A DNA stretch of 48,348 nt from positions 1 to 48,348 of the forward strand of contig CAKMZV010000017.1 of NCBI GenBank assembly GCA_929200535.1. The letters run 5' to 3'. The stretch is from an uncultured Gammaproteobacteria bacterium. Its GTDB lineage: Bacteria; Pseudomonadota; Gammaproteobacteria; CAKMZV01. The position numbers were made by a program, and so were the translations under genes. Numbering within the stretch: position 1 is the first letter of the stretch; each line of letters starts with the position of its first letter. Below the pieces are notes generated by a model. It was not told the origin of the DNA. It saw only the letters and a program-made list of their open reading frames with translations, and did not search any database. Of this stretch, positions 27,072-30,347 are shown piece after piece.

Positions 27072-28529
27072 ATGCTTATCGCTCTTCCTGAAATACTCAC
27101 CTTAGCTTTGGCACTTTTGGTGTTAATTGTTGATTTATGCTTTGAGAAGCGTGTGTGGGTTTCTATGAGTGTTAGTCTATTGGGCTTAGGAGCTATTTTA
27201 ATCGTGTTGTTAAATATGGCAGATACTCCAGATCAAAGTGCCTTTTATGGTCATTATCAATTTGATCAAGTGGCATTATTACTTAAAGCCAGCACCATTT
27301 TACTCACAATGATAGCAATAGTTTACGCCTATTCTTATTTATCTCATTCGGCTGCTTTTTCAGAAACCGAGGATATGTTTAGGGGAGAATATTTTACCTT
27401 AATTATTTTGGCATTGCTTGGGATGATGGTGCTAATCTCATCAGGTAGTATGATTACTGCTTATCTTGGGTTAGAAATGAGTTCATTAACTTTATATGGA
27501 TTAGTTGCATGGAATAAGCGACATTTTATTAGCTCGGAGGCATCAGTGAAATATTTTGTTTTGGGTTCTATTGCTTCTGGATTATTACTCTATGGAATGT
27601 CTTTGGTGTATGGTGCTACCGGTACATTACTATTAAACGACATTACTTTTGACATTCAGCAAAGTGGCAATTTACTACTCTTTGGCTTGGTGTTTATGTT
27701 AGTTGGTATTTCTTTTAAACTCGGGGTCATTCCTTTTCATATGTGGTTACCTGATGTCTATCACGGGGCTCCAATTGTGGTAACAACATTCCTCTCAAGT
27801 GTTGCAAAAGTGGCAATGTTCGGGCTGTTATTTCGTTTATGGGCAGAGTCAATAGAAGAATCGCATCAACAAACGGATATGATGTTGAAAATTATTGCTC
27901 TAGGCTCTATTGTGCTGGGCAATGTGGTTGCGATTGCACAAAAAAATATCCGTCGATTATTGGCTTATTCTTCAATTGCTCATATGGGCTTTGTGGTGCT
28001 GGGTGTTCTCGTAGCAAGCGAAGAAGGTTATTCATCGGCATTATTTTATGTAATAATTTATGCCTTAATGAGTCTCGGAGTATTTGCCTTGCTATCTTTC
28101 TTCTTATTTAAAAATAGAGAAATTAATGAACTTGAAGAATTAAAAGGCTTGGGCTATCGCTATCCTTGGCAAGGTTTTTTATTGTTAGTATTGATGTTTT
28201 CATTGGCAAGCATCCCACCAACTGCTGGCTTTTACGCTAAGCTATTAGTATTACAATCAGTTATTGGGGCTGATTTAATTATTGAGGCAGTGATTGCATT
28301 GATATTTTCTGTTATTGGAAGTTTTTATTATCTACGGGTTGTCCGCTATATGTATTTTGATAAAACCTCCAACAATGAAGATTTAACCTTTGTCCTATCC
28401 CAAAAAGGTTGGAACAGTACAGATAGAATAATTATGCTAATTTTAAGTGGCAATATTTTACTGCTAATTTTATTGGGGATTTATCCCACACCCTTGATTG
28501 AGTGGAGTGTTGCTGCAATGCTATACTAA
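27072..28529 (+). CDS. nuoN: NADH-quinone oxidoreductase subunit N
   Basis: The 485-residue last pump subunit has LGLEMSSLTLYGLVAWNK near 132-149, GVIPFHMWLPDVYHGAPIVV near 217-236, and RRLLAYSSIAHMGFVVLG near 294-311. It ends the Complex I block. In related bacteria a DUF2818 gene normally comes next; here it stands about 2 kb further on. Confidence 0.95.
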   Translation: MLIALPEILTLALALLVLIVDLCFEKRVWVSMSVSLLGLGAILIVLLNMADTPDQSAFYGHYQFDQVALLLKASTILLTMIAIVYAYSYLSHSAAFSETEDMFRGEYFTLIILALLGMMVLISSGSMITAYLGLEMSSLTLYGLVAWNKRHFISSEASVKYFVLGSIASGLLLYGMSLVYGATGTLLLNDITFDIQQSGNLLLFGLVFMLVGISFKLGVIPFHMWLPDVYHGAPIVVTTFLSSVAKVAMFGLLFRLWAESIEESHQQTDMMLKIIALGSIVLGNVVAIAQKNIRRLLAYSSIAHMGFVVLGVLVASEEGYSSALFYVIIYALMSLGVFALLSFFLFKNREINELEELKGLGYRYPWQGFLLLVLMFSLASIPPTAGFYAKLLVLQSVIGADLIIEAVIALIFSVIGSFYYLRVVRYMYFDKTSNNEDLTFVLSQKGWNSTDRIIMLILSGNILLLILLGIYPTPLIEWSVAAMLY

Positions 28530-28639: not shown

Positions 28640-29596
28640 ATGTCAAATTGGAAAAAACGTAGAAAGAAAAAACTATTAAACGAGGCACGACGAACAGGGC
28701 GGATAGAGGAGCTTCAAAAAATAAAAAGTTCTAAAGTGTCCTCTTTTAGAGAGAGTTTGGTTGAAGAAACAAAATCACCAAAACTTGAAAAAGAACGAAT
28801 AATTGAAAACAAGCCAGTTAAAGTTAGTAAATCACCAAGACGAGAGAAAGAAAATGTTAGAGTATCTAAGACGCTCGCAATTGACTATAAATACCCTAAA
28901 TGTTTTGGGGATATTCGGCGAGAGTTCAAAAGGGGCTATAGTGATGATGTTTTTAATAGTTTGGAGAGAGGAAGAGCTATTCTATCAACGGAAGAACAAC
29001 TACGTCAATACTTGCATTCATACGGTCCAATGCATAGAGAAAAACTTATTAAAGCATATCAAACATTATTTGAATTTTTAAATATTTCTAAGAATGAAAA
29101 AATTGAAATTTTTGATTATGCGTGTGGTCAGGGAATAGGAGCAATCGTTTTGTTAAACGAAATCGAAGAAAAAAAGAGCTTCAATTTAGCTAATTTATTG
29201 GGAATAACATTGATTGAGCCTTCAAATATAGCCTTAGAGTGTGCGAAGTCTTTCCTTGATAAATCGGCACATTTATACAGCGTCAATAAGTGCTTTGATT
29301 ATTTAACTCAACGTGACTTAAAAAGTAATGATAATGCAATAAAAATACATATATTTTCTAATATATTAGATATGGAAGTTTTTAATGTGGAAAAGTTAGT
29401 TTATATGATTTCAAAAACTCAAAGTGGGGTAAATTATTTTGTTTGTGTTAGCGCACTAAACAAAGATAAATTAGATAACTTTATGAATAAGTTTAAAGGA
29501 CATAAAGGTTTTAAATGCCTTTCATCGCTTGATGGGTCCTTTAGCAATGAGCAGGAGTGGAAAATGAAATGTAATATATTTAAAGTTGGAGGTTAA
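28640..29596 (+). CDS. Putative SAM-dependent methyltransferase with basic N-terminus
   Basis: The 318-residue protein opens with a very basic, probably disordered stretch of about 75 residues (MSNWKKRRKKKLLNEARRTG and more Lys/Ser), then a Rossmann-like part with motif I IEIFDYACGQGIGAIVLL near 157-174 and an acidic strand end in LLGITLIEPSN near 189-199. There is no DPPY/NPPY motif of DNA adenine or cytosine-N4 methylases and no PC motif of cytosine-C5 enzymes, so the target may be RNA or protein. It ends one base before an AlkB-like gene; the pair is probably co-translated. Confidence 0.6.
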   Translation: MSNWKKRRKKKLLNEARRTGRIEELQKIKSSKVSSFRESLVEETKSPKLEKERIIENKPVKVSKSPRREKENVRVSKTLAIDYKYPKCFGDIRREFKRGYSDDVFNSLERGRAILSTEEQLRQYLHSYGPMHREKLIKAYQTLFEFLNISKNEKIEIFDYACGQGIGAIVLLNEIEEKKSFNLANLLGITLIEPSNIALECAKSFLDKSAHLYSVNKCFDYLTQRDLKSNDNAIKIHIFSNILDMEVFNVEKLVYMISKTQSGVNYFVCVSALNKDKLDNFMNKFKGHKGFKCLSSLDGSFSNEQEWKMKCNIFKVGG

Positions 29597-29597
29597 A

Positions 29598-30347
29598 GTG
29601 AATTTATTTGAGAGGAATAAAATTTTGCCATTTACAGTGCCTAATGAAGAAGGTTATTCGGTTAGCTGGAATGAGACGTTAAATGGTTTTGATATTATAG
29701 TTCCTTATGGGAAATTGTTTTATTCAGAGTCATTTTTTAATAAAAAAATTAGTGATAGAAGTGTCGAATATTTTTTGGAAAATGATAGTAATGATTGGAA
29801 ATCAACCGATTGGACTAAAATTGAAAAAGATCTTTTAAGTGATATTTCTTTTAAAAATATTGATTGGCAACATGACAAAATAAAAATGTACGGAAAGGAG
29901 GTTTATTTACCTCGGTTGTCAGCTTGGTATGGAGATAGCGATAAGCCTTACACATATTCAGGTTTAACTTTAAAACCAAAAAAATGGAATAAAGGACTTT
30001 TGTATATTAAAGACCAAATATCTAAAGTTTCAAGTGTAGATTTTAATAGTGTTTTAATGAACTGGTACAGAAACGGTGAAGATTATATAAATTGGCATAG
30101 TGATGACGAAAAAGAGTTAGGGAAAAACCCTGTGATTGGTTCTGTAAATTTTGGAGAAGAGCGTGATTTTATTATTAGGCTAAATGATAAGTCAAGCAAG
30201 ATAACTATACCTTTAAAACATGGTACATTTCTACTTATGTCAGGTGAATTACAGCATTTTTGGCAACACTCTGTTCCCAAAAGAAAAAAAGTAAAAGGCT
30301 CTAGGTTTAATTTAACGTTTAGAGTAATTAATCATGAAAGCTCCTAA
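29598..30347 (+). CDS. AlkB-like 2-oxoglutarate/Fe(II) dioxygenase
   Basis: The 249-residue protein has the AlkB fold: PRLSAWYGD near 108-116, LMNWYRNGEDYINWHSDD near 153-170 with the iron-binding H-x-D, FGEERDFIIRL near 186-196, LMSGELQHFWQHSVPK near 213-228 with the distal His, and the closing GSRFNLTFR near 233-241 with 2-oxoglutarate arginines. It would remove alkyl lesions or methyl marks from nucleic acid. I chose GTG 29598 behind GGAGG at 29588-29592. Its link to the upstream methyltransferase suggests a mark-writing and mark-erasing pair (inference). Confidence 0.85.
   Translation: MNLFERNKILPFTVPNEEGYSVSWNETLNGFDIIVPYGKLFYSESFFNKKISDRSVEYFLENDSNDWKSTDWTKIEKDLLSDISFKNIDWQHDKIKMYGKEVYLPRLSAWYGDSDKPYTYSGLTLKPKKWNKGLLYIKDQISKVSSVDFNSVLMNWYRNGEDYINWHSDDEKELGKNPVIGSVNFGEERDFIIRLNDKSSKITIPLKHGTFLLMSGELQHFWQHSVPKRKKVKGSRFNLTFRVINHESS

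Follow-up and report, generated by a model that had tools for sequence, protein, structure and literature searches.

The window analysed here comprises 48,348 nucleotides (positions 1 to 48,348, forward strand) of contig CAKMZV010000017.1, referred to below as C17, from an uncultured gammaproteobacterium (assembly GCA_929200535.1). Within it, a methyltransferase (MTase) gene and an AlkB-family dioxygenase gene lie between nuoN and the gene of a DUF2818 protein, all on the same strand (Table 1). The automatically called AlkB frame began at a TTG codon (29586-30347), while homologues and a GGAGG sequence five bases upstream back a GTG start at 29598. With this start, a single base (29597) separates AlkB from the MTase stop codon, which agrees with the one-base spacing given by a sequence-only reading of this DNA.

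Table 1. Genes and features at the nuoN–DUF2818 locus of the window
Feature	Position	Strand	Basis and remarks
nuoN, complex I subunit N	27072..28529	+	485-aa ORF; upstream neighbour of the MTase-AlkB pair; 39-43% identity to the DUF2818-adjoining nuoN of five relatives
MTase, class I SAM-dependent methyltransferase, 318 aa	28640..29596	+	Family alignments; AlphaFold model (pLDDT 71); structural matches; weak Methyltransf_31 matches in 9 of 14 family members
MTase N-terminal Lys/Arg-rich tail, ~83 residues	28640..28888	+	Alignment; model pLDDT <50 at residues 34-100
AlkB-family Fe(II)/2-oxoglutarate dioxygenase, 249 aa, GTG start	29598..30347	+	PF13532 (1.1e-28); AlkB part of PADLOC CARF_2OG (4.6e-80); alignment; model (pLDDT 85); PDB matches
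DUF2818 gene, 101 aa	30500..30805	+	PF10993 (3.5e-22); downstream neighbour of the pair

The same reading held that DUF2818 usually follows nuoN directly and that the two genes had been inserted between them. Among 56 relatives searched, six besides the window's genome contain a full-length DUF2818 match (E < 1e-25). In five of these, DUF2818 is the next gene after nuoN and has the same orientation, with a spacing ranging from about an overlap to 100 bases; in the sixth (L143), it is preceded by tpiA and a 162-aa ORF instead of nuoN. The gene order in relatives therefore bears out both statements. The GC content of the pair (31% for the MTase and 30% for AlkB) is low compared with 37% for the window; stretches of equal size reach so low a value in only 0.6% of cases. 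A candidate target-site duplication at the junctions, a 14-base imperfect repeat (11/14 in the zones compared), was rejected, as 31 of 300 random zone pairs matched it and it is thus no better than chance. Within the window, neither Rfam nor tRNA searches gave a match.

The two proteins and their relatives

The MTase contains a SAM motif D-Y-A-C-G-Q-G (159-165), an acidic motif L-I-E-P-S (191-195) and the motif H-I-F-S-N-I-L-D (237-244). In the family alignment, D159 is conserved in 38 of 39 rows, and G163, Q164, E193, H237 and D244 in all 39. On its own, the window protein has no Pfam match above cut-off and reaches no curated MTase family. Its model shows the strand-helix order of a class I (Rossmann) methyltransferase, and the best eight Foldseek matches are mitoribosomal proteins of the METTL17/Rsm22 type, which align over 215-224 residues within the span 83-318 at Z 16.8-18.5; other MTases follow with Z of 16.1 or less. 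The suspicion that the first protein might lack a methyltransferase fold is thereby removed. The likeness to Rsm22 and METTL17, methyltransferase-like proteins of mitoribosomal small-subunit assembly, is one of fold only (10-15% identity), and the Rsm22 Pfam profile matched none of 14 MTase family members at E 0.1. METTL17-type proteins may not be active methyltransferases. The basic N-terminal tail is absent from most relatives and is mostly poorly modelled. The first gene probably encodes a methyltransferase acting on nucleic acid.

Relatives of this domain also occur in helicase proteins (MT836254 and IMG/VR contigs), whose N-terminal MTase domain is 27% identical to the window MTase in both cases; unlike the window MTase, it is fused either to NERD and a UvrD-type helicase (L005, a phage-labelled record) or to a UvrD-type helicase (L057). 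AlkB of the window subfamily was not found in the fetched DNA of L057 and L058, nor in the ORF list of L005. The fusion follows an apparent DUF1848 gene, recognised by eye, in both L005 (3390-11221, with a NERD and UvrD profile match) and L057 (4831-8445), and L005 additionally encodes a trypsin-like protease and a 1062-aa protein that falls into no family. In a Flavobacteriales locus (L046, 488-5812), a reverse transcriptase of defence type (RT-TIR_XII profile, 3.5e-58) precedes a copy of the pair whose MTase carries an N-terminal extension. One MTase family member, taken to be this L046 protein, shows a weak likeness to the phage antirepressor KilAC domain (PF03374, E 0.029).

The second protein was correctly named as AlkB by the sequence-only reading. 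It scores 101 bits against PF13532 (gathering score 31.2), and the HxD...H residues H167, D169 and H224 as well as R236 and R242 of the RxxxxxR motif are invariant in 34 of 34 AlkB rows, the former being the iron ligands and the latter the 2-oxoglutarate arginines. For these counts and for the AlkB tree, only rows longer than 200 aa were included from loci L118-L137. The subfamily is marked by a conserved N-terminal segment before the catalytic core, KISDRSVEYFLEN (K-I-S-D-R-S-V-E-Y-F-L-E-N in the window protein). The model is closest to human ALKBH3 and ALKBH2 (about 32-33% identity), and the window AlkB is probably a nucleic-acid demethylase.

Co-inheritance and mobility of the pair

A first genome scan with the window MTase alone found no relatives, and the AlkB alignment was therefore used to scan 84,980 species genomes. 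This yielded 17 loci, from gammaproteobacteria, Methylophilaceae, Mariprofundaceae, Campylobacterales, Bacteroidota and one Bacillota bin; the count includes L056, a generic AlkB (40% identity) without the KISDRSVEYFLEN-type (KISDRSVEYF) segment. The MTase lies directly upstream of AlkB in 10 of the 17 loci, and an AlkB of the window subfamily stands without it in six. Conversely, of 30 places matched by the MTase profile whose loci were fetched, 22 have AlkB at a distance of up to about 1.5 kb, and the remaining eight lack it nearby. The gap between the two genes ranges from -28 to 242 bases in 17 pairs. Furthermore, MTase and AlkB distances correlate across 26 pairs (r = 0.84; 0 of 2000 permutations as high); omitted were L043 with its cut MTase, the broken L054, and L053, which is close to L052. 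The two genes thus do not rarely occur together, the finding that would have spoken against a functional pair. They form a real, co-inherited unit whose partners are not obligate, given the six lone AlkB genes and the eight MTase loci without AlkB.

The neighbours of the pair vary from site to site (by eye, rplY/prs in L054, zapD in L040 and ispE/murG in L041), and the pair is also found on two Moraxella osloensis plasmids. Its occurrence at unrelated sites across phyla indicates that the pair moves. In the AlkB tree, the window protein falls into a supported group (98/94) of 25 rows, in which stand-alone and type III copies are mixed without finer resolution. The single Bacillota locus (L053, a contig binned as Kurthia with the order NE0113-MTase-AlkB) groups within Acinetobacter sequences in this tree and so probably reflects a binning error. 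Two of the 10 paired loci are damaged: in L043, the MTase has lost its start beside a transposase fragment while AlkB is intact, and in L054 AlkB is interrupted by an in-frame stop and the MTase has an odd end.

These observations bear on a toxin-antidote arrangement, in which the MTase would be a toxic effector methylating the Watson-Crick face of tRNA, rRNA or DNA, and AlkB an antidote that is freed or blocked upon infection. The MTase-first order and tight spacing are consistent with such a system, as is the frequent persistence of AlkB without the MTase, both in the lone copies and beside the truncated MTase of L043. However, MTases of the wider family without AlkB (8 of 30 fetched loci) run against the expectation that a toxin never occurs without its antitoxin, and we consider this arrangement unlikely.

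Linkage to type III CRISPR loci

Several genomes gave Cas10-palm matches, at E 1e-7 to 1e-3, that probably stem from GGDEF proteins, and RAMP genes rather than Cas10 therefore served as the type III marker. Among 348 genomes of the Moraxellaceae, the MTase profile matches 32 places in 23 genomes, RAMP genes occur in 20 genomes, and 14 genomes carry both. Type III genes were thus present in 14 of 23 genomes with the MTase compared with 6 of 325 without it (Fisher p = 8e-15, in which independence is overstated as the genomes are related). In 13 of the 14 double carriers, the nearest RAMP gene lies on the same contig, 1.1-12.8 kb from an MTase, while in G781 the two are on different contigs.

For 18 of the 23 genomes, the gene order was examined in a total of 20 stretches, with genes labelled by phmmer against reference proteins of these loci and ten proteins checked against Pfam. 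Locus L118 reads NE0113-Cmr1-Cas10-Cmr3-Cmr4-Cmr5-Cmr6-Card1-Cas6-MTase-AlkB-CARF(APE2256)-Cas2-Cas1, where Cmr3 is assigned by position only. AlkB is followed directly by Cas2-Cas1 in L119, L120, L121, L124, L130 and L131; in L118 and L128, a CARF gene stands between AlkB and Cas2-Cas1. Three of these loci (L124, L128 and L131) carry another set of RAMP genes, resembling that of Hydrogenovibrio locus L042. In Moraxellaceae, type III CRISPR loci thus repeatedly include the pair.

Two further kinds of neighbourhood were noted. A prokaryotic viperin (pVip) gene lies near the pair on an M. osloensis plasmid (L004, 3805-4731) and in a type III-B locus (L127, 7928-8944); together with an MkoA-like helicase, viperin makes up the other defence neighbours of the pair's relatives. 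MTase paralogues without AlkB stand beside apparent single-stranded DNA-binding protein genes in L120 (4125-5045), L123 (4046-4870) and L132 (11085-12065), near SspD in L120 and near DndH/SspG-like genes in L132. The genomes concerned are presumably Psychrobacter-like, the genus having been recognised by eye.

Outside this family, the pair of Hydrogenovibrio L042 has Cas10/RAMP genes as neighbours, together with a Card1-like nuclease and an NE0113 CARF gene. Only 2 of 62 genomes of its order gave a match, and as these are G451 itself and one 49-position fragment, they provide no independent replicate. The search for the MTase at type III loci thus covered the Moraxellaceae, one further order and small samples. 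In Acinetobacter and an Acinetobacter-like bin, NE0113 immediately precedes the pair at three loci (L052, L053 and L089); in L051 it lies 2.2 kb upstream, with two opposite-strand genes between. RAMP genes were not found in the four genomes of this group that were tested (G459-G462). Downstream of the pair in L050-L052 follow vWA, PP2C, kinase and MkoA-like helicase genes. The resulting island (L051, 1791-12708, and also L052 and L050, the last without an adjoining NE0113), which consists of CARF (NE0113), MTase, AlkB, vWA, PP2C phosphatase, kinase and MkoA-like helicase and has no type III genes, may be a CARF-linked relative of Mokosh. Across the scanned carriers, type III systems are no commoner than in the class as a whole, with RAMP genes in 2 of 17 genomes with AlkB against 34 of 274.

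In the window's own genome, no cas gene adjoins the pair on C17, and all RAMP matches fall on another contig, C18. This contig (L079, 20-13072) holds a complete type III-B Cmr locus, which includes Cas2, an RT-Cas1 fusion of 986 aa and two arrays with 23 repeat copies; its Csx16 protein has a long N-terminal part that is probably membrane-bound. The C18 operon showed no recognisable CARF effector gene, and no NE0113 was found in the genome. The presence of this type III-B system alongside the pair may be a coincidence.

The sequence-only reading had noted that accessory AlkB proteins are sometimes phage- or defence-linked. The defence part held for relatives of the pair, and more strongly and specifically than guessed, in the form of type III CRISPR, while the phage part found no support for this AlkB subfamily. 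No relative of the subfamily appeared in viral contigs scanned with the AlkB alignment, and phage AlkB matches cover at most 77% of the window AlkB query, at 45% identity or less. Phage AlkB is treated in sections of PMC7824862.

This context allows the remaining alternatives to be weighed. The pair could be an alkylation-repair cassette, in which AlkB mends m1A/m3C lesions in DNA or RNA, the MTase is only loosely linked and selection is for damage tolerance. The closeness of the AlkB model to the repair enzymes ALKBH2 and ALKBH3 would suit this account, as would the lone AlkB copies at housekeeping sites (6 of 17 loci), but neither the strong co-inheritance with the MTase nor the repeated siting inside type III CRISPR operons is expected of simple repair, and we consider this account doubtful. 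Alternatively, AlkB might remove base methylation from invading RNA or DNA and so enable type III recognition or spacer capture, with the MTase protecting self. Although the pair adjoins Cas2-Cas1 in several loci and type III systems read RNA, the window copy lies away from any cas locus and the relevant invaders would have to carry AlkB substrates, so that such counter-modification seems quite unlikely. Finally, these might be ordinary rRNA or tRNA modification genes, mobile by chance and without a defence role, as the fold of the MTase, nearest to mitoribosome assembly proteins, could indicate. Against this stand the sporadic distribution (2 of 56 relatives; the MTase in 23 of 348 Moraxellaceae genomes) as well as neighbours of the CRISPR, viperin, Ssp and CARF kinds, and we regard it as very improbable.

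Proposed role and comparison with known systems

The explanation we favour, with about even confidence, is that the pair is a horizontally mobile, defence-associated two-gene operon for nucleic-acid methylation and demethylation, serving as a recurrent type III ancillary module in Moraxellaceae and standing alone in the window. It builds on the genes observed, their intact catalytic motifs and their folds, and on the evidence of mobility, of co-inheritance and of type III linkage in Moraxellaceae. As to mechanism, the MTase would methylate a base of RNA or of single-stranded nucleic acid, giving a mark such as m1A or m3C that AlkB would take off again; the mark might be low in healthy cells and be set or cleared upon infection. 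Marks of the m1A/m3C type are suggested by the ALKBH3-like eraser, and RNA as the substrate by the Rsm22-like MTase fold together with the basic tail. Both the substrate and the writer-eraser logic are inferred.

A bolder proposal, which we consider doubtful, is that the pair acts as a reversible m1A/m3C-type switch of type III immunity, marking a nucleic acid of the pathway and thereby tuning interference, memory formation or signalling. The marked molecule would be crRNA, RNA of the target or of the spacer precursor, or even cyclic oligoadenylate, at its adenines. On this proposal, the window copy would have left the CRISPR locus, and its target in trans may be the type III-B system of C18. 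Since the window proteins contain no CARF domain, gating by cyclic oligoadenylate would not be direct here.

Most type III ancillary proteins described to date belong to the nucleases, proteases, channels or ring nucleases and are switched by cyclic nucleotides. If an MTase and a demethylase are indeed a recurrent component of type III operons, reversible nucleic-acid modification would join these ancillary functions, and bacterial AlkB homologues would gain a role beyond alkylation repair. A literature search joining AlkB with CRISPR, CARF, Cas10, antiphage or phage defence gave no description of the pair, although an earlier mention is possible; the main texts of a type III survey (PMC11229360) and of a work on ring nucleases (PMC12409355) contain neither "AlkB" nor "methyltransferase". 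For NE0113, a passage in PMC4012209 predicts a role in regulating transcription.

Compared with known AlkB proteins, the window AlkB shares its fold and its iron and 2-oxoglutarate residues with ALKBH2 and ALKBH3, the human demethylases of m1A and m3C, but differs from them in being bacterial and in having its own N-terminal KISDRSVEYFLEN segment and an MTase partner. E. coli AlkB (PRK15401) belongs to the same superfamily, yet the window protein reaches only 15 bits against an equivalog cut-off of 267. A further counterpart is the PADLOC profile CARF_2OG (PDLC01964), which describes a CARF-AlkB fusion. Its AlkB half matches residues 26-244 of the window AlkB, including the pre-core segment, with 267 bits, and its CARF half matches NE0113 proteins from loci of the pair with 36-202 bits, the highest value being that of the L118 protein. 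A link between CARF and AlkB is therefore already catalogued. In contrast to CARF_2OG, the window AlkB lacks a CARF domain, aligns to profile positions 130-350 of 353 only and has a methyltransferase partner instead, and no PADLOC model matches this MTase. Likewise, the relatives of the pair share their operons with the type III ancillary effectors Csx1, Card1 and NE0113/CARF5, which carry a CARF sensor, whereas the MTase-AlkB pair itself has none. The type III CRISPR linkage of the MTase-AlkB pair is new here, and we class the pair as a variant type III CRISPR ancillary module.
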